A DNA stretch of 56,445 nucleotides from contig JANTHJ010000009.1 in NCBI GenBank assembly GCA_024762475.1, positions 1 through 56,445 of the forward strand, given 5' to 3'. Source of the stretch: Chromatiales bacterium. GTDB lineage: Bacteria; Pseudomonadota; Gammaproteobacteria; Chromatiales; Chromatiaceae. The notes beneath the pieces were generated by a model. That model made no database searches. It saw nothing but the letters and a program-made list of their open reading frames with translations, and was not told the origin of the DNA. Position numbers and translations under genes: made by a program. Shown piece after piece: positions 6,244 to 41,834 of this stretch (the stretch's first letter is position 1; each line of letters starts with the position of its first letter).

Positions 6244-7947
<1,704 letters not shown>

Positions 7948-7971
7948 CACCAACCCCTTTGAAAACCGATG

Positions 7972-13980: not shown

Positions 13981-14017
13981 GGAGCGTTCGAATTCTTTAG
14001 AAAAGAGGGGGAGAGCT

Positions 14018-14040
14018 GGCGGCGAGATCCTCTCGCCGCC
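14018..14040 (-). promoter_or_regulatory. Stable hairpin between urtA and urtB
   Basis: A perfect 10-bp stem GGCGGCGAGA/TCTCGCCGCC with a 3-base loop and no T-run. Such a hairpin after a binding-protein gene typically protects the upstream mRNA so the binding protein is made in excess. The effect is inferred. Confidence 0.6.
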
Positions 14041-14062
14041 GCCCCTTTCTTATGTCAGATGA

Positions 14063-15355
14063 TCAGTAGTTCTGACCCGAGCACTTGCCCGTTTTGACAT
14101 TGTAGTTACCGCAGGAGAGCGGCTTGCGCCAGTCAGCGATCAGGTCCTTGGAGCCCGGCAGGAAGTCCGACCAGGCATCGCCCACCACCAGGCCAGGGGT
14201 GCTGTAGACGATCTCGAACTGTCCGTCGTCCTGGATCTCGCCGATCAACACCGGCTTGGTGATGTGGTGATTGGGCATCATGGCCGAGTAGCCACCCGAC
14301 AGGTTCGGCGCCGTCACGCCCACCATGGCGTCCACGACCTTTTCGGGATCGGTGGTACCAGCCTTCTCCACCGCTTTCACCCACATGTTGAAGCCGATAT
14401 AGTGAGCCTCCATGGGGTCGTTGGTCACCCGGTCCTCTTTCTTGATGAACTTGTGCCAGGCCTCGATGAACTCGTCGTTGACATCAGCGTCCACGCTCAT
14501 GAAATAGTTCCATGCGGCCAGGTGGCCGACGAGCGGCTTGGTGTCAATACCTGAGAGTTCCTCTTCGCCGACCGAGAACGCCACTACCGGAATGTCCTCG
14601 GCGGAGATGCCCTGGTTGCCCAGCTCTTTATAGAAGGGCACGTTGGCATCACCATTGATGGTGGAGACCACCGCAGTCTTCTTGCCGGCAGAGCCGAACT
14701 TCTTGATGTCAGCAACGATCGATTGCCAGTCGGAATGACCAAAGGGCGTGTAGTTGATCATGATGTCCCCATCTTTCACGCCCTTGGCCTTCAGATAGGC
14801 CTCGAGGATCTTGTTCGTCGTACGGGGATAGACATAGTCGGTCCCGGCCAGCACCCAGCGCTTCACACCTTGATCCATCAGGTAGTCGACTGCCGGAATC
14901 GCCTGCTGGTTGGGTGCCGCGCCGGTATAGAAGACGTACTTGGAGGACTCTTCGCCCTCGTACTGCACCGGGTAGAACAGCGGCGTTTTCAGTTCCTCGA
15001 CCACCGGCAGTACCGACTTGCGCGACACCGAGGTCCAGCAGCCGAAAATGGCGGCAACCTTGTCTTTCTGGATCAGCTCACGTGCCTTCTCGGCGAACAG
15101 CGGCCAGTTGGACGCCGGATCCACCACCACCGGCTCGAGTTTCTTGCCCAGCAGCCCACCCTTCTTGTTCTGCTCCTCGATGAGCATCAGCATGGTGTCC
15201 TTGAGCGTGGTCTCAGAAATGGCCATGGTGCCCGAGAGCGAGTGCAGAATGCCTACCTTGATGGTGTCGGCGGCCTGAACCGCACCGCTGACCACCAGGG
15301 CTGCGGCGGCCGACACGGCCAGAGCAAGCCTGCGTACAGGAACGATTGATTTCAT
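14063..15355 (-). CDS. urtA: Urea ABC transporter substrate-binding protein UrtA
   Basis: 430 residues. A signal peptide covers about the first 28 residues (LALAVSAAAALVVSGAVQAA). The mature protein has the UrtA-type start DTIKVGILHSLSGTMAIS and stretches such as IFGCWTSVSRKSVLPVVEE and LFYPVQYEGEESS. It delivers periplasmic urea to UrtBC. First gene of the urt-ure block, preceded by a sigma-54 promoter; AGGGGAGAT serves as the ribosome-binding site. Confidence 0.96.
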   Translation of the reverse strand: MKSIVPVRRLALAVSAAAALVVSGAVQAADTIKVGILHSLSGTMAISETTLKDTMLMLIEEQNKKGGLLGKKLEPVVVDPASNWPLFAEKARELIQKDKVAAIFGCWTSVSRKSVLPVVEELKTPLFYPVQYEGEESSKYVFYTGAAPNQQAIPAVDYLMDQGVKRWVLAGTDYVYPRTTNKILEAYLKAKGVKDGDIMINYTPFGHSDWQSIVADIKKFGSAGKKTAVVSTINGDANVPFYKELGNQGISAEDIPVVAFSVGEEELSGIDTKPLVGHLAAWNYFMSVDADVNDEFIEAWHKFIKKEDRVTNDPMEAHYIGFNMWVKAVEKAGTTDPEKVVDAMVGVTAPNLSGGYSAMMPNHHITKPVLIGEIQDDGQFEIVYSTPGLVVGDAWSDFLPGSKDLIADWRKPLSCGNYNVKTGKCSGQNY

Positions 15356-15426: not shown

Positions 15427-15442
15427 GGCAGGGAACGTGCCA
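15427..15442 (-). promoter_or_regulatory. Sigma-54 promoter of the urt-ure block
   Basis: On the minus strand TGGCACGTTCCCTGCC keeps the GG-N10-GC spacing and the full TGGCACG -24 element; the -12 element is TGC. Transcription would start near 15416, about 60 bp before urtA. Confidence 0.8.
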
Positions 15443-25805: not shown

Positions 25806-25852
25806 GGCAGGTCAACCACCACATAGCAAAGTGCTGGCCCGTCCCGGGGGAT

Positions 25853-26182
25853 TCATGCCGCCGCCTCATCGGTCTTCAGGCCCAGGTAGATCTTGCCACC
25901 CTCGACCTTGACCGGATAGACGTTGGTGCAACCCTCGTCCGGCCCGGTGGCACAACCGCTGTCCAGATCGATCTTCCAGTTGTGCAAGGGGCAGGTGACC
26001 GTCGTGCCGCTGACGATGCCCTGCGACAATGGCCCCTGCTTGTGGGGGCATTCGTCCTTCAGGGCAAACACCTGGTCGTCCCGGGTACGAAATACCGCCA
26101 CGTTCATGGTGTCGGTCTTGACCACGCGGGAACCCAACCTCGGGATGTCATCCAGCGCGGCGATCTCTATCCAGTTACTCAT
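25853..26182 (-). CDS. nirD: Nitrite reductase (NADH) small subunit NirD
   Basis: 109 residues with a Rieske-type fold. The two Rieske pairs are both complete: ECPHKQGPLSQG and CPLHNWKIDLDSG, so unlike many NirD proteins it may bind a [2Fe-2S] cluster. The start at 26182 gives MSNWIEIAALDDIPRLGSRV; upstream in-frame sequence lies in the repeat and is not coding. Partner of NirB. Confidence 0.93.
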   Translation of the reverse strand: MSNWIEIAALDDIPRLGSRVVKTDTMNVAVFRTRDDQVFALKDECPHKQGPLSQGIVSGTTVTCPLHNWKIDLDSGCATGPDEGCTNVYPVKVEGGKIYLGLKTDEAAA

Positions 26183-26217
26183 TCGTTTTAATCCTGTTGA
26201 TTCCCAATTTTGATTTC

Positions 26218-26371
26218 TTTCACCGCAAAAGACGCCAAGGTACGCAAAGGTCTTAGAAGCACTTGACCTGAAGCCCCCACTGCCGGACGAACGGCCGATC
26301 AATCGTTCGCGCCACGGGCCGTGCAAGCATCAGCAATCACTTTGCGGCCCTATGCGTCCTTTGCGGTTAAC
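26218..26371. repeat. Palindromic intergenic element, family A variant (copy 3)
   Basis: About 154 bp filling the nirB-nirD gap. The left end reads TTTCACCGCAAAAGACGCC then GGTACGCAAAGG; the right end reads CTATGCGTCCTTTGCGGTTA. Its ends are a variant of the CACCACGAAG type seen in the other copies. Confidence 0.65.
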
Positions 26372-26376
26372 AACAA

Positions 26377-28815
26377 TCAGGCCGCGGTGATTTCGATGGG
26401 CTGGAACTCGTGCTGGTCCTTGCCCTCGGCCGCAGCCTTCCAGGGATCGACCTGGGCGAACTGCTGGCTGTACTTGAAGCGATCGTACAGGGCCTTGCGC
26501 TGCTGCGTATCGTCTACGATGGCCTGTTTCACATAGTCGAAGCCGACCCGCTCCACCCAGGGTGCGGTGCGTTCGAGGTAGTGGGCCTCTTCGCGGTACT
26601 TCTGGACGAAGGCGCCGCAGTATTCGAGCACCTCGCCTTCGGACTCTACCTTGCACATCAGATCGGTGACGCGCACCTTGATGCCGCCATTGCCGCCGAT
26701 ATGCAGTTCGTATCCGGAGTCGACGCACACCACGCCAAAGTCCTTGATGGTGGCCTCGGCGCAGTTGCGCGGACAACCAGAAACAGCCAGCTTGAACTTG
26801 TGGGGCATCCACGAGCCCCAGGTGAGCTCCTCCAGCTTCACGCCCAGTCCAGTGGAGTCCTGGGTGCCGAACCGGCACCAGTTCTTTCCGGCACAGGTCT
26901 TGACCGTGCGCAACGCCTTGCCGTAGGCATGGCCGGAGACAAAGCCGGCGCTGGACAGATCCTTCCACATCGGTGGAAGGTCTTCCTTCTTTATACCGAA
27001 CAGGTCAATGCGCTGGCCGCCGGTGACCTTCATCTCGGGTACCTGATACTTGTCGGCCACATCGGCGATGGCGCGCAGCTGGTCGGGCGTGCACAGGCCG
27101 CCAAACATCCGCGGCACCACCGAGTAGGTGCCGTCCTTCTGGATGTTGCCGTGGGCCCGCTCGTTGATGAAGCGCGACTGCGGGTCGTCGTGGTATTCGC
27201 CAGGCCAATTCGCGAGCAGATAGTAGTTGAGCGCCGGACGACAGGCCGCGCAACCATCCGGATTCTTCCACTCGAAGAAGCTGCGTACCGCGTCCATGCT
27301 CTTGAGGCCCTGTTCCTTGATCCCCGCGATCACCTCGTCGTGACTGTGCTCGGTACAGCCGCACAGCGGCTTCTTGCTGGGTGCGGCGTCATAGCCCTCA
27401 CCCACGGTACTTGCAAGGATGGACTCCACCAGGCCGGTACAGGAGCCGCAGGAACTGGAGGCCTTGGTATGGGCGCGCACGTCCTCCAGGGTGAACAGGC
27501 CCTTCTTGACGATGGCGTCCACGATCTCCCCTTTGCAGACGCCGTTGCAGCCGCAGATCTCCGCGTCGTCTCCGAGGGCTGCCACACGATGCTCGTCGCC
27601 GTGTCCAGCGTCGCCCAGATCGTGCTGACCGAACAGGATGGTGGAGCGCATGGCGGAAATATCGGTACCGTCGCGCAGCAGCTGGAAGTACCAGGTGCCG
27701 TCGAGCGTGTCGCCATACATCACAGCGCCCTTGATGCGGTTGTCGCGCACCACCAGTTTCTTGTAGACGCCGGCACCCGGGTCCTGCAAAACCAGGGTTT
27801 CGTCACCCTCCTGCTCGTTGAATTCGCCGGCGGAGAACAGATCGATGCCGGTCACCTTGAGCTTGGTCGAGGTGACCGACCCCTCGTAACGCGCGATACC
27901 CATCTCGGCCAGATGATTGGCCGCCACCTTGGCCTGCTCGAACAGGGGCGCCACCAGGCCATAGCAGATGCCGCGATGCTGCACGCATTCGCCCACTGCA
28001 TAGACCCGTGGATCATAGGTCTGCATGGTGTCGTTTACCACGATGCCCCGCTCGCAATGCAGCCCGGCCGCCTCGGCCAGTTCGATATTGGGACGGATAC
28101 CCACCGCCATCACCACCAGGTCGGCCTCGACCTGCGAGCCGTCTGCGAATTTGAGCCCCTGCACCCGGTCGTCTCCCAGGATCTCGCTGGTCTGGGACTC
28201 CATCAGGAACCTCATGCCGCGCTCTTCCAGCGACTGCTTGAGCATCTCCGCGGCGGGATGGTCCAGCTGACGCTCCATCAGGATATCCATCAGATGCACC
28301 ACGGTCACATCCATTCCGTTCTTCATCAGGCCGTTGGCCGCCTCCAGACCCAGCAAGCCGCCACCGACGACAACCGCCTTCTTGTACTGCTTCGAGGCCT
28401 CGAGCATGGCCTCCACGTCGGCAATATCACGGAAACCGATCACGCCTTCCTTGTCATGCCCCGGCACCGGGATGATGAAGGGGTTGGAGCCGGTTGCGAG
28501 CAGCAGGCGGTCGTATTCGGTCTCCTGACCGGATTCGGTCACCACCTTGCGGTGAGAGCGGTCGATGCTGACCACCGGGTCACCGGTGTGCAGGGTGATG
28601 CCGTTCTCTTCGTACCAGGCGCGGTCGTTGAGAATGATGTCGTCGATCGTCTTCTCACCCGCGAGCACCGGCGAGAGCATGATGCGATTGTAGTTGGGAT
28701 AGGGTTCGGCCCCGAACACGGTGATGTCATAGCGTTCCGGATCAAGCTTCAGCAGCTCTTCCAGGACTCTGACGCCCGCCATGCCATTGCCGATCAATAC
28801 CAGTTTCTGTTTCAT
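26377..28815 (-). CDS. nirB: Nitrite reductase (NADH) large subunit NirB
   Basis: 812 residues. Order: FAD/NAD oxidoreductase (MKQKLVLIGNGMAGVRVLEE, VVVGGGLLGLEAANGL), BFD-like [2Fe-2S] domains (CGCNGVCKGEIVDAI, CGSCTGLVESIL), then the sirohaem/[4Fe-4S] domain with KTCAGKNWCRFGTQDS and KLAVSGCPRNCAEAT. It reduces nitrite to ammonium in the cytoplasm. The ATG at 28815 is the clear start; the open upstream frame runs into the preceding gene's end. Confidence 0.96.
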   Translation of the reverse strand: MKQKLVLIGNGMAGVRVLEELLKLDPERYDITVFGAEPYPNYNRIMLSPVLAGEKTIDDIILNDRAWYEENGITLHTGDPVVSIDRSHRKVVTESGQETEYDRLLLATGSNPFIIPVPGHDKEGVIGFRDIADVEAMLEASKQYKKAVVVGGGLLGLEAANGLMKNGMDVTVVHLMDILMERQLDHPAAEMLKQSLEERGMRFLMESQTSEILGDDRVQGLKFADGSQVEADLVVMAVGIRPNIELAEAAGLHCERGIVVNDTMQTYDPRVYAVGECVQHRGICYGLVAPLFEQAKVAANHLAEMGIARYEGSVTSTKLKVTGIDLFSAGEFNEQEGDETLVLQDPGAGVYKKLVVRDNRIKGAVMYGDTLDGTWYFQLLRDGTDISAMRSTILFGQHDLGDAGHGDEHRVAALGDDAEICGCNGVCKGEIVDAIVKKGLFTLEDVRAHTKASSSCGSCTGLVESILASTVGEGYDAAPSKKPLCGCTEHSHDEVIAGIKEQGLKSMDAVRSFFEWKNPDGCAACRPALNYYLLANWPGEYHDDPQSRFINERAHGNIQKDGTYSVVPRMFGGLCTPDQLRAIADVADKYQVPEMKVTGGQRIDLFGIKKEDLPPMWKDLSSAGFVSGHAYGKALRTVKTCAGKNWCRFGTQDSTGLGVKLEELTWGSWMPHKFKLAVSGCPRNCAEATIKDFGVVCVDSGYELHIGGNGGIKVRVTDLMCKVESEGEVLEYCGAFVQKYREEAHYLERTAPWVERVGFDYVKQAIVDDTQQRKALYDRFKYSQQFAQVDPWKAAAEGKDQHEFQPIEITAA

Positions 28816-28852
28816 ATGCTTGCTACCTAGAATGTGGTGTCCGGATTGCTGT

Positions 28853-30997
28853 TCAGGCCGATACGGACGCGTTTTCCGGTGAGACCGGCGACTCGAACGC
28901 AGCGAGATACCCTTCCACGTCCGCAGCGTCGAAGGTCCGCCCATCCATGAAGCGATCGGCGCCCATGGGGATGGGCTCGTCGCCGCTCATCAATACCCAA
29001 CCCCCCTCATGTTCGCCTTCGGTCTTGAAATCGACCTCCGGGTAGGGATGGCCAAGCGCATCGCAGGCGGCGCGATAGACCTCGGGCCGATATACCGACT
29101 TGGCGATCGCCTTCAGATCCGCGCCTGCATCGATCTCCCCCCAGCGCCGCATCTGGCTGAGGAACCAGACGGCATGCGACCGCCAGGGGAAATTCGCCGC
29201 ATAACGATGGAAAACGTTGTAGTCCGGAACCCGTTGCGGCCGCTCATCGGACGAGTATTGCAGGGTGCCGGTAAGTGATTTCTCCAGAACGTCGACCGGC
29301 GCATTGACATAACGACCAGCGCTGAGCAACTCACACACCTCACGCCGGTTTTGCGGCTCATCGAGCCATTCGCAGGCCTGGAGCAATGCCATCAGAACGG
29401 CCTGATGGGTATTCGGATTACGCTCCGCCCAGTTGCGGGTCACCGCAAACACCTTTTCAGGATGGTTGTTCCAGATGTCGTAGGTGGTGATGAGCGTGCG
29501 TCCCAGTCCCTGCGCCACGGCGTCACTGTTCCACGGCTCGCCGACACAGCAACCCTGGATCATGCCGGCGCGTAGGTAATGCCCCACCTGGGGTGGTGGT
29601 ACCACGGTGATGCGCACATCGTTGTCCGGATCGATGCCCGCAGCCGCCATCCAATAGCGCAACAGATAGTTGTGCGACGATTGAGGGAACACGACGGCAA
29701 AGGTGAGCGGCTTGCGTCCCGCGGCCTTGCCCTGGTCGATCACGGCCTTTAGGGCCTGCGCCGATCCCATGGCGGTGTCGATCGCCGGCACGCCGGTGGC
29801 CAACATCTGGCCGTACAGCTCCTTGGAGACCGTGATCGCGTTGCCATTCAGGTCGAGATTGAACGAGGCCACCATGGGTTCACAGGCCTTGGCATCGAGT
29901 CCCGACGCCAGCGGCATCGCCGCGAGCATTTGTGCCCCATCGAGCATACCGGTACAGACCTTGTCCCGGATGTTGGCCCAGGACGATTCACGCGACAGCG
30001 CCACATCCAGACCCTGCTCGGCGAAGAAGCCCTTTTCCTTCGCCACCACCAGCGGCGCACAGTCGGTCAGTGGAACAAATCCCAGCTCCAGGCGGGTCTT
30101 CTCCAACACCTTGCCCGTGTCGCTGGTCAGACGGCTTGTCGACGCGGGCAGAGGCAGGACGTTGCTTTGCGCCGCCGCCCCCTCGGCAGGAGCGTGGCTG
30201 GGCGCCTGGTCGCCGGCGCTCTGATGACGTTCGTGCAGGAACTTCACCACCTCGGCGCGGTAATGGTTGTACTGCGGATCCTCTGCCAGCGCGAGACGGT
30301 CCCGTGGGCGTTCCAGTTCGACGTGCAGGATATCGCCAATGGTCGCGTTCGGTCCGTTGGTCATCATCACGATGCGGTCGGAGAGCAGTACCGCCTCGTC
30401 CACATCGTGAGTGATCATGATCACCGTGTTGTTCAGGTTCGCCTGGATCTCCATGAGCGAATCCTGCATGTGGGTTCGGGTAAGCGAATCGAGGGCGCCG
30501 AAAGGCTCATCCATCAGGAGCACCTTGGGTTCCATGGCCAGGGCCCGCGCGATGCCGACCCGCTGCTTCATGCCACCGGAGATCTCGTCCGGGCGCCTGT
30601 CCAGGGCATGCGACATATGCACCAGCTCCAGGTTGTGCAGCGTCCACTCGTGCCGTTCCTGCTTGGACTTGGTCTTCTTGAAGACCTGATCCACTGCCAG
30701 TCGCACATTGTCGTAGACGCTCAACCAGGGCAGCAGGGAATGGTTCTGGAATACTACCGCCCGATCGGGACCGGGCTGGCTCACCTCCTTTCCCTCGAGG
30801 ATGACCCCACCCTTGGTGGCCTGCAGCAGGCCAGCCACAATGTTCAGCACCGTCGACTTGCCGCAGCCCGAGTGCCCGATCAGAGAGATGAACTCTCCCT
30901 CGGCCACCTGCAGGTTCACGTCCTCGAGGACGGTCAGGGGGCCCTTGTCGGTCGGAAAGGTGATCCCGATGTGATCGATATTCAAATAGCTGTTCAT
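28853..30997 (-). CDS. nrtC: Nitrate ABC transporter ATPase fused to NrtA-like binding domain (NrtC type)
   Basis: 714 residues. Residues 1-265 are the ATPase: Walker A GHSGCGKST, signature ISGGMKQRVGIARAL, Walker B VLLMDEPFGALD. Residues about 310-700 resemble NrtA ([28 protein letters not shown]-like CCVGEPWN, RRWGEIDAGADLKAIAKSVY). In cyanobacterial NrtC this domain is a cytoplasmic regulator of uptake. A separate NrtD ATPase is absent here, so this protein may work as a homodimer. It lies between nrtB and nirB. Confidence 0.92.
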   Translation of the reverse strand: MNSYLNIDHIGITFPTDKGPLTVLEDVNLQVAEGEFISLIGHSGCGKSTVLNIVAGLLQATKGGVILEGKEVSQPGPDRAVVFQNHSLLPWLSVYDNVRLAVDQVFKKTKSKQERHEWTLHNLELVHMSHALDRRPDEISGGMKQRVGIARALAMEPKVLLMDEPFGALDSLTRTHMQDSLMEIQANLNNTVIMITHDVDEAVLLSDRIVMMTNGPNATIGDILHVELERPRDRLALAEDPQYNHYRAEVVKFLHERHQSAGDQAPSHAPAEGAAAQSNVLPLPASTSRLTSDTGKVLEKTRLELGFVPLTDCAPLVVAKEKGFFAEQGLDVALSRESSWANIRDKVCTGMLDGAQMLAAMPLASGLDAKACEPMVASFNLDLNGNAITVSKELYGQMLATGVPAIDTAMGSAQALKAVIDQGKAAGRKPLTFAVVFPQSSHNYLLRYWMAAAGIDPDNDVRITVVPPPQVGHYLRAGMIQGCCVGEPWNSDAVAQGLGRTLITTYDIWNNHPEKVFAVTRNWAERNPNTHQAVLMALLQACEWLDEPQNRREVCELLSAGRYVNAPVDVLEKSLTGTLQYSSDERPQRVPDYNVFHRYAANFPWRSHAVWFLSQMRRWGEIDAGADLKAIAKSVYRPEVYRAACDALGHPYPEVDFKTEGEHEGGWVLMSGDEPIPMGADRFMDGRTFDAADVEGYLAAFESPVSPENASVSA

Positions 30998-31007
30998 TTT
31001 GATTACC

Positions 31008-32036
31008 TCAACGCAGCACGGCGTTACGATCCCAGCTCACCCAGCGCTGCAGCATCAGCATCAGGCGGTCGAGCAGGAACCCGATGAACCCGATCACCAG
31101 GACGGCGACCATAATGCGGGCCAGGGAATTGGAGCTGCCATTCTGGAATTCGTCCCATACGAACTTGCCCAGGCCCGGGTTCTGCGCCAGCATCTCGGCG
31201 GCGATCAGTACCATCCAGCCGATGCCAAGGCTCAGGCGAAGGCCGGTAAAGATCATCGGGATGGAAGATGGGATGATGATCTTCATGGTCTTGGTGAACC
31301 AGTTCAGACGCAGTACGCGGCTGACGTTGATCAGATCCTTGCTGACACCCGAGACCCCCACTGCGGTATTGATGATAGGCGGCCACAGGCAGCACAGCGT
31401 CACCGTGATGGCGGAAGTCAAAAAGGATTTGGAGAACATCGGGTCCTGACTGACGTAGACCGCAGAGACCACGATGGTGACCAATGGCAGCCAGGCCAAA
31501 GGGGACACCGGCTTGAATATCTGGATCACCGGATTGAAGGCCTGATAGAGCGTCTGGCTCATCCCGATCAGGATGCCCAGGGGGATGGCGATTAGCGAGG
31601 CCAGGATGAAACCGGTAGTCACGGTCCCCAGGCTGGTCCAAATCTGGTCGATGAAGGTCGCGGGGCCGGTGTACTTTCGACCCTTCATCTTGTCGATCTT
31701 TTCTTGCGGCTTGCCGGCGGCAACCGCCTTCTCGATGCGCTTGTCCAGCCGCCCATAGAAAGCGGCTTCCTTGGCCCGCTCGGCGCGATGCTCGTCATAC
31801 AGTGCGACCGCCTGTTCCCAGACCTTGGCCGGCCCCGGCAGGACGCCCAGGGAGGTCTGCACCTGGCGCGCGCCGATGTCCCACAACGCCAGAAAGAATG
31901 CGATGGCAATGAGCGGCACCAGGACATTCCGGGCAAGCCCCCCCAAGTGCCTGGTGATGGTGTCGCCTGACAGATATTCGATCAGCCGATCGAACCAAGG
32001 AATCTCGAAGGTCTTCTTACTGGTGACCGCAGACAT
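31008..32036 (-). CDS. nrtB: Nitrate ABC transporter permease NrtB
   Basis: 342 residues. An N-terminal helix (LVPLIAIAFFLALWDIGARQ) is followed by a roughly 80-residue loop, then the binding-protein-dependent permease fold: LASLIAIPLGILIGMSQTLY, FKPVSPLAWLPLVTIVVSAV and LRLSLGIGWMVLIAAEMLAQ. The long first loop (residues about 60-125) is lysine-rich. It lies 10 bp before the ATPase gene. Confidence 0.94.
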   Translation of the reverse strand: MSAVTSKKTFEIPWFDRLIEYLSGDTITRHLGGLARNVLVPLIAIAFFLALWDIGARQVQTSLGVLPGPAKVWEQAVALYDEHRAERAKEAAFYGRLDKRIEKAVAAGKPQEKIDKMKGRKYTGPATFIDQIWTSLGTVTTGFILASLIAIPLGILIGMSQTLYQAFNPVIQIFKPVSPLAWLPLVTIVVSAVYVSQDPMFSKSFLTSAITVTLCCLWPPIINTAVGVSGVSKDLINVSRVLRLNWFTKTMKIIIPSSIPMIFTGLRLSLGIGWMVLIAAEMLAQNPGLGKFVWDEFQNGSSNSLARIMVAVLVIGFIGFLLDRLMLMLQRWVSWDRNAVLR

Positions 32037-32101
32037 GGTAGTTACCTCGTGGATCGTGGTCGGAAGGGAGGGGCGGCATGGGCCGCCCCTCCGGTGCCCG
32101 C

Positions 32102-33490
32102 TCAGGGCTTGTCGTCGCCTTTCAGGCCAATCGGGAACTGGGCCAGGTAGTCATTCGGCTTGGTCCCGTCGAAGGTGATGCTATCGATGAACTGGGTCTG
32201 CGGAGGACGGAAACCGGTCTCCTTGTCGAAGTCCGGGAAGTCTTCCGGCTTCATCTTGCCCTCGGCGATCAGCTCCTCGGCCGCCTTACGATAGATGTCC
32301 GGGCGATAGACCTTCTTCGCCATGTCCATGTACCAGTTGTCCGACTTCTGCGCAGGAATCTGACCCCAGCGACGCATCTGGGTCAGATACCAGACCGCAT
32401 CCGAGTAATAGGGGTAGGTGGCGAAGTAGCGGAAGAAGACGTTGAAATCGGGTATCTCACGCTTGTCACCCTTCTCATACTCGAAGGTGCCGGTCATGGA
32501 ATTGGCGATGACCTTGTAGTCCGCGCCCACGTAGTTCGGCTGGGAGAGGATCTTCACCGCCTCCGGACGGTTCTTGTTGTTGTCCTCGTCAAGCCACTTT
32601 CCCGCACGAATCAGGGCCTTGACCACGCGCACCGTGGTGTTCGGATATTTCTCGGTGAACGCCTCGGTCATGCCAAAGACCTTTTCCGGATTGTCCTTCC
32701 AGACCTCGTAGTCGGTGATGACCGGCACGCCGATACCCTTGAACACCGCCTGCTGGTTCCACGGTTCACCAACGCAGTAACCATCGATGGTGCCGGCCTC
32801 GAGCGTCGACGGCATCTGCGGGGGAGGGGTCACCGACAGCAGCACGTCGGCAGAGAGGGTGCCGCTGGTATCACCCTTGTCCGGCGCGTAGTAGCCGGGG
32901 TTAAGACCACCGGCCGCGAGCCAGTAGCGCAACTCATAGTTATGGGTGGAGACAGGGAACACCATGCCCATCTTGAAGGGCTTGCCTGCGGCCTTGTACT
33001 TGTCGACCACCGGCTTGAGATATTTGGCGCTGATGGGATGCTTGGGCCGCCCGTCCGGAAGTTTGGGGATATCGGGCTTCATCTCCTTCCAGACCTTGTT
33101 GGACACGGTAATGCCGTTGCCGTTCAGGTCCATGGAGAAGGGCGTGATGATATGGGCCTTGGTGCCATACCCGATGGTCGCCGCCAATGGCTGGCCGGCG
33201 AGCATGTGGGCCCCATCGAGCTTGCCGTCGATGACGCCATCGAGCAGCACCTTCCAGTTGGCCTGGGCCTCCAGGGTCACGTACAGGCCTTCGTCCTCGA
33301 AGTAACCTTTCTCATACGCGACGGCCAGGGGCGCCATGTCGGTCAGCTTGATGAAGCCGAACTTGAGGTCCTCTTTTTCCGGCTCTCCGATCTCCGCCGA
33401 TACCTGCATGCTCGACAGCCCCAGGCCGGCGACCAGGCCGATTGCCAGGGTGAGACTTCCCAGGCGCTTCTTGAAACTTATCTCTTTCAT
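32102..33490 (-). CDS. nrtA: Nitrate-binding protein NrtA
   Basis: 462 residues. A signal peptide covers about the first 32 residues ([20 protein letters not shown]). The mature part has [39 protein letters not shown] and [19 protein letters not shown], typical of NrtA. It captures nitrate or nitrite in the periplasm for NrtB. The ATG at 33490 has GGAG upstream and follows the leader terminator. First gene of the nrtA-nrtB-nrtC-nirB-nirD-nasA operon. Confidence 0.95.
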
Positions 33491-33509
33491 TTGATTTGCC
33501 CTACTCCGC

Positions 33510-33562
33510 AAAAAAAACGCCCACCTCCCCTGCCCGCATAGCAGCAGACGGAGAGATGGACG
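33510..33562 (-). terminator. Intrinsic leader terminator upstream of nrtA
   Basis: On the minus strand a 13-bp stem (some G-U) pairs CGTCCATCTCTCC (33562-33550) with GGGGAGGTGGGCG (33530-33518), closely followed by eight T residues (33517-33510). It lies between the promoter and the nrtA ribosome-binding site, so it must be bypassed for expression. Its 5' arm overlaps the P2 hairpin. Confidence 0.85.
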
Positions 33563-33589
33563 CCGTTGTCCGTTTGGCCGACATTGGCC
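33558..33589 (-). promoter_or_regulatory. Two-hexaloop ANTAR (NasT) target RNA in the nrtA leader
   Basis: Read on the minus strand: P1 is GGCC-AATGTC-GGCC (33589-33576), then a 4-base linker AAAC, then P2 is GGAC-AACGGC-GTCC (33571-33558). Both loops are six bases with A at position 1 and G at 4, the pattern bound by ANTAR antiterminators. The P2 3' arm GTCC lies inside the terminator's 5' arm, so P2 and the terminator exclude each other. Confidence 0.85.
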
Positions 33590-33617
33590 GATTGATCCAG
33601 ATTGAATACGTCGACCG

Positions 33618-33635
33618 GCGCTCGCCGTTGAGCAC
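33618..33635 (-). promoter_or_regulatory. Additional upstream hexaloop hairpin in the nrtA leader
   Basis: On the minus strand GTGCTC-AACGGC-GAGCGC forms a 6-bp stem (one G-U) with the same AACGGC loop as P2. It lies about 28 bases upstream of P1 and could be a second NasT contact. Confidence 0.6.
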
Positions 33636-33669
33636 TCCCGCAGGAGGTGATCGACTTGGCGGAAGAACA

Positions 33670-33685
33670 AGCAGATATCGTGCCA
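33670..33685 (-). promoter_or_regulatory. Sigma-54 promoter of nrtA
   Basis: On the minus strand TGGCACGATATCTGCT: complete TGGCACG, GG-N10-GC spacing, TGCT as the -12 element. The expected start is near 33658, leaving a leader of about 168 bases that contains the NasT target and terminator. Confidence 0.85.
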
Positions 33686-33760
33686 GGCGGACCCGCCCTA
33701 TATTATTCAGATAGTTAGCTCAGGCTGTAGAAAAGATGCCCGGGCTGGACGCCAGGGCGC

Positions 33761-33808
33761 CGCACCATTAGCGCACGCTGATGTGCTGATGCGCACCAGG
33801 ACTGGGCA
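33761..33808. promoter_or_regulatory. Pair of NtrC-like sites upstream of nrtA
   Basis: Against TGCACCA-N3-TGGTGCA: 33792-33808 scores 6 of 7 and 4 of 7; 33761-33777 scores 6 of 7 and 2 of 7. The centres are 31 bp apart at about -111 and -142, the spacing of classical NtrC enhancers. The second site is weak alone. Confidence 0.5.
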
Positions 33809-33943
33809 AATGATGTGCAGCCGATGGAAAGGCTTCGAGCGAAGAAAATGGCGCCGCTCTGCGGCGATGCGACAGCCGCATCTCCGGACGGAGACATGAC
33901 ATCAGGTTCCCGGCCGCACCCGCGCGAATGTCACGAAGCAGAA

Positions 33944-34546
33944 TCAGCCGGTCCGGGGTGGTCCACCCAGGATCTCCGAGGCGGCAATGATGCTCTCGGC
34001 CACCTCGGCAAGGCGCTGGTTGCGATCCATGGCCGCCTTGCGCAAAAGGCGATAGGCCTCCGGTTCGGCCACCCCCCGCTGGGTCATGATGATCCCCTTG
34101 GCTCGATCGATGGCCTTGCGTTCGGCCAGTTGACCGCGGGTTTTCTCCAATTCGGAATGAAGGGCGCGATACTGCTCGAAATGCGCAATGGCCGCGTCCA
34201 GAATCGGACGCACCCGCTGGCTCTGCAGTCCATCCGCCACATAGGCGCTGACCCCAGCACGCACCGCGCGCCGGATGCTCTCCGGATCGTCGTCGGGACT
34301 GAACAGCACCAATGGCCGCGGCGCCTTGGCCTGGACACTCCCCAGCGCCTCTAGCATATCCCGGTTGGGGGCATCCATGTCCGCGATCACCACGTCCGGC
34401 TGGTAGCGGTCCACAGCCGCCAACAGGTCGTCGGTGAACGACGCCACCCCGACGACCTCGCAGCTATCGCAGGTGAAATCAGCCACCCCCGTGGCAGCGC
34501 GCGGGGGCTGATCGCTGACCAGCATGATCCGAAGCTTCTGATTCAA
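33944..34546 (-). CDS. nasT: ANTAR-domain response regulator NasT (nitrate antiterminator)
   Basis: About 200 residues. Receiver-like part: LRIMLVSDQ (strand 1), VVIADMDAPNRDMLEAL with the acceptor Asp, and PLVLFSPDDDPESIRRAVRA. A coiled-coil linker leads to the ANTAR RNA-binding domain KAIDRAKGIIMTQRGVAEPE then AYRLLRKAAMDRN. NasT binds paired hexaloop leader RNA to stop a terminator forming. The start is uncertain: TTG at 34546 keeps strand 1 whole, while ATG at 34525 would cut it. No NasS nitrate sensor is adjacent. Confidence 0.9.
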   Translation of the reverse strand: MNQKLRIMLVSDQPPRAATGVADFTCDSCEVVGVASFTDDLLAAVDRYQPDVVIADMDAPNRDMLEALGSVQAKAPRPLVLFSPDDDPESIRRAVRAGVSAYVADGLQSQRVRPILDAAIAHFEQYRALHSELEKTRGQLAERKAIDRAKGIIMTQRGVAEPEAYRLLRKAAMDRNQRLAEVAESIIAASEILGGPPRTG

Positions 34547-34649
34547 GAAAGGTACCCAAGCGTGATTCCAGCTACCCGGGCAAACAGAACCGCCCGCTGT
34601 GCGGGGCGATTCTACCCTTTCAGTCGACGCACGAGGTACCCATCGATAC

Positions 34650-35282
34650 TCAGACCGCACCCTCGTCGCCGATCCGTCCCGCCTCGGCATGGGTCAGGTG
34701 AGGATGATTGCGCAACCGGTACCCGGCATTGTGCAGGTCCAGGATACACTGGCGAAGATTGGCACGGATCGCCGGATTCTCGGAGTCCAGGTGGGAGGCA
34801 AGCACGTGCATATCCACCTCCACATGGTGATCATGGACGGCCACTGCCATGTGCAGGCGTTCCGCCATACTCAACAGGGGCTCCAATGCGCTCGCGTCCA
34901 GTGTTTTCCTGCTCCGCGCATGGCCATTCGGGGATGACGACGGCTGTGGCTGCCGGGGAAGCGAAAATCTATTGTCCAGCGCCTCCGGCACCGCTGCCTG
35001 CCCGTCGAGCACGGCCTCGACCAACGCGATCACGGCCTGCGCGGTCTCACTGGTCGGCGCCTGACAGAGAATGGCCGCCATGACCTCCCGCTGATCCTCG
35101 CTCAGCTTCTCCGCCCGGTAGCCGGTCATCGCGAAATCGGGCCGCTCCCCCAGGTGGCGCAGGAAGGACGCCGTCACCACATGGTAGCGGGATGTATAGA
35201 AGAAAAGTTCCTCGGCAAAGGCTCCCCATCCCGAATCAAAATCCGGATAGAAATGCCCGGCGATGCGTCTTTGGCCTGTCAT
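34650..35282 (-). CDS. Hypothetical protein between nasT and pckA
   Basis: 210 residues. The N-terminal half has aromatic-rich HFYPDFDSGWGAFAEELFFY and is mostly helical; a low-complexity linker (about 105-125, LPRQPQPSSSPNGHARSRK) leads to a second helical part with a His cluster HDHHVEVDMH. No signal peptide or membrane span. It starts 13 bp after pckA and may be co-transcribed with it. No family recognised. Its position next to nasT makes it a candidate partner, but nothing in the sequence shows that. Confidence 0.6.
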   Translation of the reverse strand: MTGQRRIAGHFYPDFDSGWGAFAEELFFYTSRYHVVTASFLRHLGERPDFAMTGYRAEKLSEDQREVMAAILCQAPTSETAQAVIALVEAVLDGQAAVPEALDNRFSLPRQPQPSSSPNGHARSRKTLDASALEPLLSMAERLHMAVAVHDHHVEVDMHVLASHLDSENPAIRANLRQCILDLHNAGYRLRNHPHLTHAEAGRIGDEGAV

Positions 35283-37005: not shown

Positions 37006-37473
37006 TCAGGAGGCCTTGCGCCCGAGCAGCGCCTTCAGCCAGCTGCGCTTCTCGTCGGCCTCCTTTTCATACTCGGCACCGTCGATCATGACCTCGGCAA
37101 CGGCGGTGTAGGTCGTCACCCAGGCATCCTTCACCTCGGGGGTGAACTGGTCACCGAGCCCCTGCTCCAGGGTCCACAGGAAGGACGCGCCGACCTTGTC
37201 GTAGTCCTCGGCCTTCACGCCGTAGCCCTTGTGTGTCTTGCCCGATGCCTTGAGCGGCTCCACCAGGTGCTCCAGGTTATCCAGACCGCTCACAGCAGTA
37301 TTGAGCATGGCCATCAGCTTGCGTCCCTGTTCCTTCATATCGCCCTTGAAGTAAGGCTTCACCTCCGGATACTGCTCGAAGAGCCGGTTGTAGAAAAGGT
37401 CGGCGGCCTGCTCCTGTATCGGCAGTACCTTGGCCCAGGATTCCTTGACCAGCTGTTTTTGTTCGGGTGTCAT
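37006..37473 (-). CDS. Single-domain globin (Vitreoscilla haemoglobin-like)
   Basis: 155 residues. It starts MTPEQKQLVKESWAKVLPIQ and has FYNRLFEQYPEVKPYFKGDM, with Gln in the distal region and the proximal His in SGKTHKGYGVKAEDYDKVG. No FAD/NAD reductase domain is attached, so it is not a flavohaemoglobin. Roles known in the family are oxygen delivery and NO dioxygenation. It is preceded by haem-protein genes on the same strand, suggesting it belongs to that module. Confidence 0.92.
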   Translation of the reverse strand: MTPEQKQLVKESWAKVLPIQEQAADLFYNRLFEQYPEVKPYFKGDMKEQGRKLMAMLNTAVSGLDNLEHLVEPLKASGKTHKGYGVKAEDYDKVGASFLWTLEQGLGDQFTPEVKDAWVTTYTAVAEVMIDGAEYEKEADEKRSWLKALLGRKAS

Positions 37474-37548
37474 CTGTGTTTCTCCTTGCGTTACAAATAA
37501 TGAAATGGGTAGTCAGGGCCGGGACCTGCCCGTCCCTGTGTCGAAGGG

Positions 37549-38154
37549 TTATTGATCTACCGGGATCCGGATCACGACCCCGCCCATGACCTGGCCGATC
37601 TTGAAATCGCGCCGCGGCGAATCCTTGTGATCGTTGTGACAGGACACGCACACCGGTGCGACCGCGATATCAGGGTAGACAGCGGTGAAATAAGACTTGC
37701 CGCCCAGTTTTTCGGTGGTGTAGTAGTTCTTGCCCACGTTCTCGGCGACATACTTCAACCCGGTTTTTTCCGCCTCGGTCTTGGGCGCGTTCTGCCTGTT
37801 GACCGGCCACAGCGACTGCAGCGAGTAACTGAAGTTCACATCGGGCAGCGCATCTGCACGCTTGGCGACGAGCTCGGAGCCGAAGCGGAACATCTGCGCA
37901 GGAAGCGCCAGGGCCTTGTCGTCCTGGAAATGTTCACTCGCCTTGATGACCTTGTCCTTCTTCACCAGCCGGTTGACGATCTTGCGGGTGTAGATGGTGC
38001 GGTCCGAATCCATGACCAGATGCAGCGCATCGGCCATGGCCCTGGGGGTGATCAGTTTCTCGTTCGCGACATCGCCGACGGCCAGCGTACTGGCCGCACC
38101 GAGCACGACCGTGGTGCCGAATACGACGATGGAAGTGAACAGGTTCTGCTTCAT
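37549..38154 (-). CDS. Periplasmic mono-haem protein with Tll0287-like (DUF3365) domain
   Basis: 201 residues. A signal peptide covers about the first 26 residues (FTSIVVFGTTVVLGAASTLA). The domain ends with a c-haem site CVSCHNDHKDSPRRDFKIGQ and the typical VMGGVVIRIP finish. Tll0287-like domains bind one c-type haem and often sense redox state or small ligands. It lies 44 bp from the multihaem cytochrome gene and 75 bp before the globin. Confidence 0.88.
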   Translation of the reverse strand: MKQNLFTSIVVFGTTVVLGAASTLAVGDVANEKLITPRAMADALHLVMDSDRTIYTRKIVNRLVKKDKVIKASEHFQDDKALALPAQMFRFGSELVAKRADALPDVNFSYSLQSLWPVNRQNAPKTEAEKTGLKYVAENVGKNYYTTEKLGGKSYFTAVYPDIAVAPVCVSCHNDHKDSPRRDFKIGQVMGGVVIRIPVDQ

Positions 38155-38197
38155 GGTTTCTCTCCTATGACTTTCAATGCCGGCTGTCCGGCGGGTT

Positions 38198-39616
38198 CTA
38201 CCGCTTTTCCCCGGGGGAGCCCTTCAGTTCCTTCAGGTAGTTCTCCTGGTCCTTCCTGGCCAGGTCGATGCTCTGCACATGGATGCCGGGCCGGCCATCG
38301 AAATTGCGTTCCACCAGCGTGCGGTCGGCCAAGGCATCGATCGAGAATCCGAGTCCGTGGCAATGCAGGCAGGCACCACGGATCATCTTGGTATTGGGTG
38401 AGAGATTGGCGCTCTGGTTGTGGTCCACCACGATCCGGCTGGACCAGTCGCTGATATCCCGCTCCACCCGCGGCATGTGACAGGTGGCGCAGGAGACGCC
38501 GCTACCGGGCGGCGCGCTGCCCAGCACCTCCGCCTGCCAGAGACGGAAGTGGGACGAATTGCGGTAGGCACGCGTATGCCGGTCGTCGTGACAGCCTTCA
38601 CAGGCCTCTACCGCCGCCTTGACCACGTCGTCGTCGTGGGCCTTGTGGCAGCTGTTGCAGTCCAGCGACTCGTGCGCCGCGTCGGATCGCATCGGCAGAC
38701 GTGCCCTGTCGGTGGTCATGGGCGGCAATCCGGCCGCAAGACGCATGCCGTGCTTGCCCTTGCCGAAGCGGTCGAGTTCCTGATCGTGGCAGCTGCCGCA
38801 GCTCTTGGGATCGGGCCGGGGGCGCCATGGCGCCTGCGCGTCACCGCCCTGGTGACAGGCACTGCAGTTGACGCCCGCGCGGGCATGGGCGGTCTGCAGC
38901 CAGTGGCGTATCCCGTCGGCATTCATGCCCTCACTCCGGTCGAGATCGGCCGGCATGTCCACGGCGGCCGCAGCCACCGGTTGCAGTGGATAACGGTCGC
39001 GGGGATAGGTAAGGATCTCTTCCAGTGCCTCGTGGAAGCCGCGCGGGGGCACCCTGCCGTCGCGCCGGGTATCCGTGTCGTCCATGTGTTTGACCAGGAA
39101 ATCCGTGTACAACGCACGGTTGTTGTGAAAGTTGTGGCAGCCGGCGCTGGCGCAGGTATCGAACGCCATCCCCTGATGCGAGGGGCGGTCCTCGGCGATA
39201 TCGGCATGGCAATGGGAGCACAGGTCGCGCGGCTGGGTAACCCCATCCTTGCGGGTGATCTCCGACTTGTGCTCGGTATGGCAAGTGACGCAACGCAGGG
39301 CGTCGATCTTCTCCAGACGGTCGGCATTGCGCGGGTCACGAAACTTGCTCCGAGGGTGCGAATCGAAGGGCTTCACCCGGTCCTCTCCATGGCATTCGAC
39401 ACAGTTCTCCTGTATGACCTCTTCTCCCGCCATGGCCTCTCCATGACAGATATCGCACCGCTCTGCGAGCTGGTGATGGCCGTCGCTCAGCGGCCCCGGC
39501 ATGAACAGGGTCTTGTCCTCGTCCCGCAGGAGGACCCACGCCAGCGCGGCGACGATGGCCAGGGTGATCAGCCCCCAGAGCCACCAGTAACGACCATTGC
39601 TGCGCTCGGCTGCCAT
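38198..39616 (-). CDS. Membrane-anchored 11-haem cytochrome c
   Basis: 472 residues. One N-terminal membrane anchor (WWLWGLITLAIVAALAWVLL), then a periplasmic part with ten CxxCH sites: CDICH, CVECH, CVTCH, CSHCH, CSACH, CGSCH, CNSCH, CEGCH, CATCH and CLHCH. There is also one CX4CH site, CASAGCH, making eleven haems in all. No catalytic Lys-haem motif (CxxCK) is seen, so it looks like an electron-transfer rather than a NrfA-type protein. It lies 13 bp after the flavo-b-haem gene, so the two are surely co-transcribed. Confidence 0.92.
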   Translation of the reverse strand: MAAERSNGRYWWLWGLITLAIVAALAWVLLRDEDKTLFMPGPLSDGHHQLAERCDICHGEAMAGEEVIQENCVECHGEDRVKPFDSHPRSKFRDPRNADRLEKIDALRCVTCHTEHKSEITRKDGVTQPRDLCSHCHADIAEDRPSHQGMAFDTCASAGCHNFHNNRALYTDFLVKHMDDTDTRRDGRVPPRGFHEALEEILTYPRDRYPLQPVAAAAVDMPADLDRSEGMNADGIRHWLQTAHARAGVNCSACHQGGDAQAPWRPRPDPKSCGSCHDQELDRFGKGKHGMRLAAGLPPMTTDRARLPMRSDAAHESLDCNSCHKAHDDDVVKAAVEACEGCHDDRHTRAYRNSSHFRLWQAEVLGSAPPGSGVSCATCHMPRVERDISDWSSRIVVDHNQSANLSPNTKMIRGACLHCHGLGFSIDALADRTLVERNFDGRPGIHVQSIDLARKDQENYLKELKGSPGEKR

Positions 39617-39629
39617 CGATCAGAACCGG

Positions 39630-41642
39630 TCAGAACCAGTACACCTTGAGCACGTGCCAGCCCAGCAGCGCCGGCACCGGCCAGAACAGCAGGATGTGCG
39701 TCCAGACGGCGGCGGTTCGCGCGCGTCGCGCGGTCGCGGCCTCGAGGCGGTGCTGTTGTCCCAGAAACACCGCCGCCACGCCGCCGACGATCAGCATCGC
39801 CACGAAACTGCCCGCGAGCATCGCATTCAGACCCTGGCCCAGACGGAGGCCGGTGTGCAGCACCAGCCCGAACAGCACCAGGAGACCCAGCACCAGGTGC
39901 ATCAGCCGCCACAGGTCGTAACTGCCAATGGAGAGGAAGCCGGGCGCACGCTTGCGCAGAGACATCAGCAGGCCGATGGCAAAGGCGCCCAGGACAGAAT
40001 AGCCGGTCACCTGCTTGAGCAGGCCGTCCCGCCACAGCTGGTCGATGGACCACGGCGTCTGCACGCTGTCGGCATAGGGAATGGGGGGCAGCAGTACGAA
40101 CAGCAGGCCCACCACCAGGGCCAGCAGTCCCGCCCAGGTGAGGGTCCCGGCCTGCGCGAGCGGCTCGGCACGGGCGTCCCCGATCAGTTCCTGCACCAGG
40201 GGCTGGCAGGAGCCACAGACCGATCCGGCCCCGGTAGCCTCGGAGATGGCCGTCACCGATCCGGCCCCCGCGTCACGGGCAGCGCAGATCCCTCCCCGGG
40301 TGGCTCCGGTGCATTGACACACGACGGCATTCGCCGGCCACGCCGCGACGCCACTGCTCTCGCCTTCCGGCCACAACATTCCGGTACGGCGGAAACGCAT
40401 CCGATGCCATGGCAGCACCCAGCCGCGCCGCGCGATGAAGCCCTGCAGGCGGGTGGTCTCCGGCCACTCTCCCACGCCCAGGGCACCGACCAGGCGATGC
40501 CGGTGCACCAGGATCTTGCGGTAGATGCCCTTGGCCGGTTCCCGATAGGTGTAGGTCTGGCCGTAGTGGCGCCGCGCGTCGATGCCCACCGGCCCCATGC
40601 TGAACACCGGGGTGCCGACGACCTTCAGGCGGCTGGCGGCGATCGAGCCCTGGTATTGACCTTGGGTACCACCGATATGTGCCGCCGCCACCGAGGCCTG
40701 CTCCAGGCCCGGCGCGACCAGCCCGTAGATACGTTCGCGGTGTTCGGCACACTCGCCCACCGCATAGATATCGGGGTCGGAGGTGCGCATGCTGTCGTCC
40801 ACCACGATGCCGCGACGGAATGCCAGACGCGCGTCCTTGGCCAGTTCCACATTCGGACGGATGCCCGCCGCCACGATCAGGGTATCGCACAACAACTCGG
40901 TACCATCGCGCAGGACCAGCCCGGTGAGCCGCTCGGTACCTGAGATGCGGCTGGCCCCCGACCCCAGGAGAATGCCAATGCCCTGACGCGTCAGTTCGTA
41001 TTGCAGATAGGCCGAACCCTGCTCATCGAGCTGACTGGCCATCAGTCGGTCGGCGTGGTCGATCACCGTCACCTTGGTGCCCATCTGCAGCATGCCCCGC
41101 GCGGCTTCCAGGCCCAGCAGGCCACCCCCCATCACGACGGTGTGATGGCTGCGGGCGCGGCGCGCCAGCAGGGCGGTCGCATCGTTGAGGTTGCGGAAGG
41201 TGTAGACACCAGGCAGGTGGATACCGGGAATATTCGGCACATGTGCCCGCGAGCCGGTGGCCAACACCAGGCGGCTATAGGGCTGTACCCCGCCGGTGGT
41301 ATCGACGACGACTTTTTGTATCGGATCGATGCGGCAGACCCGGTAACCCATGCGCTGCTCGACGCCCTCCAGATCGGCGCCCTCCGGGGCCTCGAGCAGG
41401 CTCGACCAATGCAGATCGCCGGCCAGCCAGGAGGAGAGCTGCACCCGGTCATAGGGCCGGTAGGGCTCGTCACCATAGACGATGATCCGCGCCTCGGGCA
41501 GGCGCCGGCGCAACTCGCGCACCACCCGCATGCCCACGGGGCCATTGCCGACCACCACGATGGGCAGCCCCTGCGCCGACCGGGCACCGAGCGGCGCCGG
41601 ATTTTCGGCCGGATCGGATTTCTGAACGTCAGTTGTTACCAT
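39630..41642 (-). CDS. NirB-like FAD/NAD(P) oxidoreductase - BFD [2Fe-2S] - di-haem b membrane fusion
   Basis: 670 residues in three parts. Residues 25-400 resemble the FAD domain of NirB (IVVVGNGPVGMRVVRE, VVMGGGLLGLEAARGM). Residues 440-490 form a BFD-like cluster domain with C442, C444, C476 and C479. Residues 500-670 hold five membrane helices; H582/H596 in helix 3 and H649/H663 in helix 5 give two H-x13-H pairs, the pattern of a di-haem b protein. It should pass electrons between cytoplasmic NAD(P)H/flavin and the periplasmic 11-haem cytochrome next to it, in either direction. A sigma-54 promoter lies upstream. I know no named enzyme with this layout. Confidence 0.85.
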   Translation of the reverse strand: MVTTDVQKSDPAENPAPLGARSAQGLPIVVVGNGPVGMRVVRELRRRLPEARIIVYGDEPYRPYDRVQLSSWLAGDLHWSSLLEAPEGADLEGVEQRMGYRVCRIDPIQKVVVDTTGGVQPYSRLVLATGSRAHVPNIPGIHLPGVYTFRNLNDATALLARRARSHHTVVMGGGLLGLEAARGMLQMGTKVTVIDHADRLMASQLDEQGSAYLQYELTRQGIGILLGSGASRISGTERLTGLVLRDGTELLCDTLIVAAGIRPNVELAKDARLAFRRGIVVDDSMRTSDPDIYAVGECAEHRERIYGLVAPGLEQASVAAAHIGGTQGQYQGSIAASRLKVVGTPVFSMGPVGIDARRHYGQTYTYREPAKGIYRKILVHRHRLVGALGVGEWPETTRLQGFIARRGWVLPWHRMRFRRTGMLWPEGESSGVAAWPANAVVCQCTGATRGGICAARDAGAGSVTAISEATGAGSVCGSCQPLVQELIGDARAEPLAQAGTLTWAGLLALVVGLLFVLLPPIPYADSVQTPWSIDQLWRDGLLKQVTGYSVLGAFAIGLLMSLRKRAPGFLSIGSYDLWRLMHLVLGLLVLFGLVLHTGLRLGQGLNAMLAGSFVAMLIVGGVAAVFLGQQHRLEAATARRARTAAVWTHILLFWPVPALLGWHVLKVYWF

Positions 41643-41714
41643 GTGTGGTGCCGGTCAACAGGCCTTGCGGCCTTCTCTGTTTCGGCCCCAAGGGCCAGCT
41701 ATCAAGGAGACCAA

Positions 41715-41730
41715 AGCACCATTCGTGCCA
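41715..41730 (-). promoter_or_regulatory. Sigma-54 promoter of the flavo-b-haem module
   Basis: On the minus strand TGGCACGAATGGTGCT: full TGGCACG, GG-N10-GC spacing, TGCT -12 element. The start would be near 41703, about 60 bp before the coding region. Confidence 0.8.
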
Positions 41731-41794
41731 GAAGAAATTAACCGTTTAACAACAAGGTGTTGACGCCTCTATACCAACCACCGTCAGGCGCGCT

Positions 41795-41834
41795 TGCACT
41801 AACGCGTGGCACCGCGAGGATAGATATTGGTGCA
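41795..41834. promoter_or_regulatory. NtrC-like sites upstream of the flavo-b-haem module
   Basis: Site 41795-41811 (TGCACTA-N3-CGTGGCA) scores 6 of 7 and 4 of 7, centred at about -100. A second site at 41818-41834 has a perfect TGGTGCA half but a poor partner half. Centre spacing is 23 bp rather than 31. Confidence 0.5.

Follow-up and report, generated by a model that had tools for sequence, protein, structure and literature searches.

A conserved operon encoding a putative NAD(P)H-fed transmembrane electron conduit associated with nitrate assimilation in proteobacteria

Introduction

Bacterial nitrate assimilation is usually treated as a cytoplasmic process carried out by NasA together with NirB or NirA. 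In Paracoccus, the electrons for this process pass from NADH to the NirB-type protein NasB, then to the Rieske protein NasG and finally to the nitrate reductase (PMC5424462). In Bradyrhizobium, the flavoprotein Flp and the single-domain globin Bjgb are encoded in an operon with NasC; this operon counters NO, and Flp supplies electrons to NasC and probably also to Bjgb (PMC4724949). Nitrite and NO likewise arise from assimilatory nitrate reduction in Rhizobium etli. A further family of relevance is that of the Tll0287/sCache_heme domains, which bind NO when fused to signalling modules, whereas the stand-alone proteins bind NO poorly and behave as redox proteins (PMC12889525).

Here, a four-gene set that could link these themes was analysed in a Chromatiales contig (JANTHJ010000009.1). 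The term window is used below for the whole 56,445-nucleotide stretch of DNA that was studied.

Results

The set occupies positions 41642 to 37006 of the minus strand and encodes, in this order, a fusion protein, an 11-haem cytochrome c, a Tll0287-like protein and a globin. As a whole, the window resembles an island for nitrogen scavenging, with urea-type ABC transporter genes at 12376-15355 and a nasA/nirBD/nrtABCD/ANTAR regulator cluster at 23136-34690. In the latter, nrtA, nrtB, nrtCD, nirB, a Rieske nirD and nasA were identified by family matches (23136-33670, minus strand), and a NasT-like ANTAR regulator was found at 33944-34690 on the same strand (PF03861, E 5e-21). An Rfam match to 5_ureB_sRNA (121 bits, 7514-7796, plus strand) is antisense to an ORF at 6244-7953 (minus strand), which probably encodes urease alpha, and the match may reflect only conserved urease coding sequence.

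The fusion gene (39630-41642, minus strand) encodes 670 residues in which, as the original prediction had stated, a NirB-like FAD/NAD(P)H domain, the four cysteines of a BFD [2Fe-2S] domain and two H-x13-H pairs in membrane helices are found in one protein. Three domains scored above their Pfam cut-offs (Pyr_redox_2, residues 28-320; Rubredoxin_C, 337-404; BFD, 440-487) and are followed by the membrane helices, and the presence of Pyr_redox_2 plus a BFD domain with its four cysteines identifies a NirB-like FAD-BFD electron input unit. The first 490 residues align in NCBIfam to the N-terminal half of NirB, and NorW is among the closest NADH-reductase relatives other than NirB. Identity with the NirB nitrite reductase itself (TIGR02374) was rejected, the score of 392 bits being far under the cut-off of 578 because the sirohaem half is absent; only positions 1-468 of the 794 in the profile were covered. 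Across 40 relatives, the glycine motifs for NAD(P)H and FAD are conserved, as are the cysteines of the BFD domain and the histidines of the haem b pairs, with Cys442/444/476/479 and the four histidines being invariant.

The AlphaFold model of the fusion was confident (pLDDT 86) and placed five helices at residues 498-517, 540-563, 575-597, 605-628 and 635-669, which carry the pairs H582-x13-H596 and H649-x13-H663. As the loops after helices 2 and 4 are rich in arginine and lysine, the positive-inside rule predicts that H582 and H649 lie on the cytoplasmic (N) side and H596 and H663 on the periplasmic (P) side, so that two bis-His haems would be stacked across the membrane. The flavin part of the model resembles NADH-dependent ferredoxin reductases (Z about 40), and a fold search with the whole model returned flavin reductases only. 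A PDB sequence search with the di-haem b domain gave no match, and its assignment to the DUF4405 di-haem b family (PF14358) was discarded after scores of 20.5-23.1 bits against a cut-off of 26.7, with weak matches in two of 15 members. Ferric_reduct (PF01794) had no Pfam match, and a profile comparison, for which the reference alignment contained some wrong ORFs, was not significant. In another genome, an 863-residue protein (L122:5833-8424) combines cyclic-nucleotide-binding domains, a BFD domain and an FNR-type FAD/NAD unit with a C-terminus resembling the di-haem b domain of the module; the cytochrome is absent there, and the protein constitutes an independent second instance of an NAD(P)H-to-haem b fusion.

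The second gene (38198-39616, minus strand) starts 13 bp downstream of the fusion and encodes a 472-residue cytochrome with an N-terminal membrane anchor and the predicted 11 haem motifs, ten of them CX2CH and one CX4CH. This pattern was kept in 44 of 45 relatives, and the one without it (L016) seems to have a disrupted reading frame. Outside the motifs, exactly 11 histidines are conserved (ten in 45/45 and one in 44/45 relatives; the next best position reaches 39/45), and 11 spare histidines for 11 haems would suit an all-bis-His wire. The count does not, however, establish that all haems are six-coordinate: in NrfA, one spare conserved histidine lies in the active site and can be catalytic, so that a catalytic haem in the cytochrome is conceivable.

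Only partial multihaem matches were found for the cytochrome in Pfam. The widest family match was to the DmsE/MtrA-type decahaem conduits (39/40 members), whereas the NrfA model was touched by 14/40. Membership of the former family (TIGR03508) was rejected, with 37 bits against a cut-off of 192 and 11 haems instead of ten. Local sequence matches to NrfA and ONR lay around the haem of the CATCHMP motif and, in a structural model of moderate quality (pLDDT 72), residues 217-441 resembled HAO and octahaem nitrite reductases (best Z 8.8, 4.5 A over 209 residues). An identity with the cytochrome c nitrite reductase NrfA was discarded as the catalytic CXXCK is present in none of 46 members, a criterion that extends to octahaem ONR, which shares the CXXCK site, while some HAO-type enzymes are without it.

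The remaining two genes, on the same strand, also agree with the original prediction. The third (37549-38154, minus strand) encodes a mono-haem c protein with an N-terminal hydrophobic segment and belongs to the Tll0287-like (sCache_heme) family (PF11845, E 9.5e-19, 68.7 bits against a cut-off of 24.1), with a single CVSCH at residues 169-173 and no cysteine outside this motif. Met88 is a very tentative candidate for the distal haem ligand, as the alignment to a canonical paralogue was unstable. No match to this family was found in a PDB sequence search. Several relatives begin in a lipoprotein-like manner, and in 11 of the 45 loci, around a quarter, a class-I cytochrome c gene follows the Tll gene.

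The fourth gene (37006-37473, minus strand) encodes a single-domain globin of the FHb/Hell's Gate globin type, with 155 residues, no reductase domain, a conserved His81 and a PF00042 match of 71 bits; the best PDB matches were 3wfw, 3s1i and 3ubc. A globin of the same kind is present in 23/45 loci, and 13 others have a truncated globin or a hemerythrin. A truncated globin takes the globin position in Oleiphilus (L030) and in G010, and a hemerythrin lies upstream of the fusion in all 12 Microbulbifer loci. The swapping of unrelated O2/NO-binding proteins across lineages suggests that a gas-binding activity belongs to the module. In 9/45 loci no gas-binding protein adjoins it, two of these (L015 and L040) being on contigs that end early. 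In several globins, the sequence closes with a short amphipathic stretch (KKGFFARMFG-like) that may serve to anchor the protein at the membrane.

Upstream of the fusion, an exact match to a sigma-54 -24/-12 promoter, TGGCACGAATGGTGCT, was found at 41715-41730 on the minus strand. The window contains just one other exact match (33670-33685), which precedes nrtA. A one-mismatch site is also present at 15427-15442, 5' of a periplasmic binding protein gene. Among relatives, 43 loci had an upstream region that could be tested, and in 21 of these a -24/-12 site scored p<=0.05 in comparison with shuffled sequence; several of these sites are perfect, and none was detected in the upstream regions of the Microbulbifer group. 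From its GG/GC elements with a 10-base gap and its conservation among relatives, a sigma-54-dependent promoter is predicted. The promoter anticipated in the original prediction was thus recovered, but the NtrC-like sites proposed along with it are weak: one possible site, with two mismatches to the palindrome, lies at 41795-41811 (plus strand), and such matches occur in numbers near chance. ANTAR nasT genes adjoin the module in 11 loci.

A scan of bacterial genomes revealed 45 loci with the fusion, a few of them cut by contig ends, and the same arrangement is spread over alpha-, beta- and gammaproteobacteria, a recurrence that reflects more than chance. The cytochrome lies directly downstream of the fusion in 45/45 loci, and the Tll0287-like gene is present in 44, the contig of the 45th (L015) ending first. 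In an independent class-wide sample of 369 genomes, 27 had the membrane domain and 25 of these carried the cytochrome beside it; L105 corresponds to a contig end, and L114 and L122 to a different fusion, the latter (a 28% relative in G284) being left out of the operon counts. Distance correlations among relatives reached 0.91 for fusion and cytochrome and 0.84-0.85 with the Tll gene, compared to a permutation maximum of about 0.2, which supports joint inheritance, with a contribution from shared species history. The value for fusion and globin was 0.35 (0.68 without L009). Two divergent copies of the module (L120 and L121) were found in a 1.7 Mb genome (G180) in which NasA and NirB were not detected.

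In the class-wide sample, NasA (called at E below 1e-200) was present in 24/27 carriers compared to 136/342 other genomes, about 40% (odds ratio 12, p 6e-7), and NirB in 22/27 compared to 145/342 (p 9e-5), in both cases with relatedness among genomes not removed. The expectation of a wire tied to nitrogen supply was supported by the co-occurrence with NasA. Physical proximity is less general: the core genes stay together, but the globin is found in about half of the loci, and nasT, nrtA/B, nirB or nasA lie within 10 kb of the module in only 17/45, a count that takes in matches of around 40% identity in L016 and L019. For 15 carriers whose loci have no nasA near the module, the gene was found elsewhere in the genome in 15/15 cases, including Hahella, Oleiphilus, Marinobacter and six Microbulbifer; in one of them, the genome of L028, the matching sequence is interrupted by in-frame stops. 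Three carriers were NasA-negative (G138, G010 and G180); in G138, a nirB-nirD-narG operon lies within 5 kb of the module, and no evident assimilatory nitrate reductase was found in the genomes of G010 and G180. Some NirB-less carriers have a two-domain nitrite/sulphite reductase instead, which adjoins NasA in G052.

Three further features were noted in these neighbourhoods. A nirB-nirD-narG operon (L118:566-7344) places a NarG-type nitrate reductase in an assimilatory-looking cluster. Proteins of about 310 residues, Cache-like or unassigned, are encoded near nrt genes (L011:14452-15408 and L014:18190-19125) and are perhaps nitrate/nitrite sensors. An Alginate_exp-type outer membrane porin, possibly a nitrate porin, lies beside the module and nrt genes in L008, L012, L017, L023 and L038.

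The module is absent from about 136 of the 160 NasA genomes in the class-wide sample, including one of the same genus (G254), and it co-occurs with NasA types having or lacking a C-terminal [2Fe-2S] domain. Therefore, it is an accessory of NasA and no necessity. The proposal that NasA lacks a partner and needs the wire as its donor is not supported, since the window itself encodes NirB and a Rieske NirD, which constitute a documented donor route (PMC5424462).

Discussion

Our preferred reading, to which we assign a rough probability of 0.42, is that the module forms an NAD(P)H-fed inner-membrane wire that acts as an accessory of nitrate assimilation and protects against its nitrogen-oxide by-products, NO and nitrite. 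This reading starts from what was observed directly, namely the gene content, the conserved ligands, the operon order, the sigma-54 site and the genome-wide link to NasA. NAD(P)H, as the putative donor, would reduce the FAD domain of the fusion, from which electrons would pass to the BFD [2Fe-2S] cluster, to the cytoplasmic-side haem b (H582/H649), to the periplasmic-side haem b (H596/H663) and then, presumably outwards, to the anchored 11-haem cytochrome. Next in line would be the mono-haem protein of the Tll0287-like type, joined in a quarter of the loci by the class-I cytochrome c. Such a chain, from NAD(P)H through eleven haem c groups to a periplasmic mono-haem carrier, runs downhill and agrees with all of the conserved ligands. 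On the cytoplasmic side, the flavin/FeS unit would probably also re-reduce the co-encoded globin, its likely partner, which would remove nitric oxide, while the wire may drain electrons towards, or itself reduce, nitrogen-oxide by-products of the conversion of nitrate to ammonium.

The cases of Bradyrhizobium and Rhizobium etli favour nitrogen-oxide protection, and the NO or nitrite handling suggested in the original prediction remains the best fit. Against it stand the 9/45 loci without an adjacent gas-binding protein (two on the early-ending contigs), the poor NO binding of stand-alone Tll0287 proteins (PMC12889525) and the weak distance correlation between fusion and globin, which improves without L009. 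A drain on NADH would also be surprising in cells whose use of nitrate calls for additional reductant.

An inward conduit, in which electrons from c-type cytochromes of the periplasm, or from quinol at the di-haem b domain, would reach NasA through the BFD cluster and so spare NADH, mainly in lithotrophs with electron entry at cytochrome c, appears unlikely. The potential of nitrate is high enough to take electrons from cytochrome c or quinol, and the strong link to NasA, the class-I cytochrome c gene in 11 loci and the presence of several carriers in sulphur-oxidiser groups, as judged from record titles, all speak for such a route. However, the NAD(P)H/FAD domain, which it does not require, is kept intact, NasA types without the C-terminal [2Fe-2S] domain co-occur with the module too, most NasA genomes do without it, and NirB/NirD is the documented donor route (PMC5424462).

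Less probable still is an enzymatic role of the 11-haem cytochrome, which as a member of the NrfA/HAO superfamily would reduce nitrite or NO in the periplasm, with NAD(P)H supplying the electrons via the fusion. The HAO-like fold of its C-terminal half and the NrfA/ONR matches at the CATCHMP haem argue for such an enzyme, whereas the absence of CXXCK, the one-to-one number of spare histidines and haems, as in an all-bis-His wire, and the wider match to DmsE/MtrA-type conduits argue against it. The spacing between haems, which we take to be shorter in the cytochrome than in NrfA, points in the same direction.

A redox or NO sensing relay, in which the Tll0287-like protein would sense NO or the redox state in the periplasm and the wire would link this to nitrogen regulation in the cytoplasm, has a small chance of being correct. 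NO binding by the signalling-fused domains and the NasT or Cache-type genes adjoining several loci fit this proposal, while stand-alone members act as redox proteins (PMC12889525). Thirteen haems and an NAD(P)H dehydrogenase would moreover make a heavy apparatus for a sensor, and the module is without an output domain. A nitrogen-regulated system for another substrate that merely shares the nitrate regulon, for example periplasmic iron or metal reduction, is similarly improbable, as its topology like that of NADPH oxidases and ferric reductases, and the frequent service of multihaem conduits in metal reduction, are set against the close genome-wide link to nitrate assimilation and the gas-binding partner proteins.

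Pfam, NCBIfam and the literature searched, which took in few subscription papers, gave no name for either the fusion or the operon, and an earlier description may exist. Each part belongs to a known kind; what is new, as far as could be tested, is their combination and the place that it takes in nitrate assimilation. The wider claim, that the module is a previously undescribed respiratory-style complex which spans the inner membrane, conducts electrons from NAD(P)H to cytochrome c through flavin, [2Fe-2S], two haem b and eleven haem c, and controls nitrogen-oxide or electron balance during nitrate assimilation in alpha-, beta- and gammaproteobacteria, stands at roughly even odds. If so, a conserved inner-membrane wire, carried by roughly every seventh NasA genome within the sampled class (24/160), would imply an unrecognised periplasmic or membrane side of nitrate assimilation and an NAD(P)H-linked electron conduit of a new type, with Marinobacter, Alcanivorax, Microbulbifer and Hahella as culturable hosts.

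Compared to known systems, the NADPH oxidases and ferric reductases (FRD, MsrQ) also pass electrons from a cytoplasmic NAD(P)H-flavin unit to two stacked bis-His haems, whose ligands presumably lie, as in the fusion, on helices 3 and 5 with a spacing of 13-14 residues; the fusion differs from them in its flavin fold, in having no Ferric_reduct match and in its periplasmic multihaem partner. The N-terminal half of NirB and the NasB-type FAD-BFD reductases likewise consist of a FAD/NAD(P)H domain followed by a BFD [2Fe-2S] domain (TIGR02374 positions 1-468), but in the fusion a five-helix di-haem b domain takes the place of the sirohaem nitrite reductase half. The cytochrome shares multihaem c packing and partial sequence and fold matches with the DmsE/MtrA conduits and the HAO/NrfA/ONR superfamily, and is distinguished by 11 haems including one CX4CH, an N-terminal membrane anchor and the lack of CXXCK. 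The PF11845 domain with one CXXCH is common to Tll0287 and the stand-alone sCache_heme proteins (PMC12889525), whereas the protein described here has no cysteine for the Cys/His ligation of canonical Tll0287 and sits in a conserved redox operon. Finally, in the narK-bjgb-flp-nasC operon of Bradyrhizobium, Flp is described as a cytoplasmic-type oxidoreductase, and a membrane di-haem domain, an 11-haem cytochrome and a Tll0287-like protein are not described, but both systems co-encode an NAD(P)H flavoprotein and a single-domain globin with nitrate assimilation, and we count NasS/NasT control and, probably, NO protection among the features that they share (PMC4724949).
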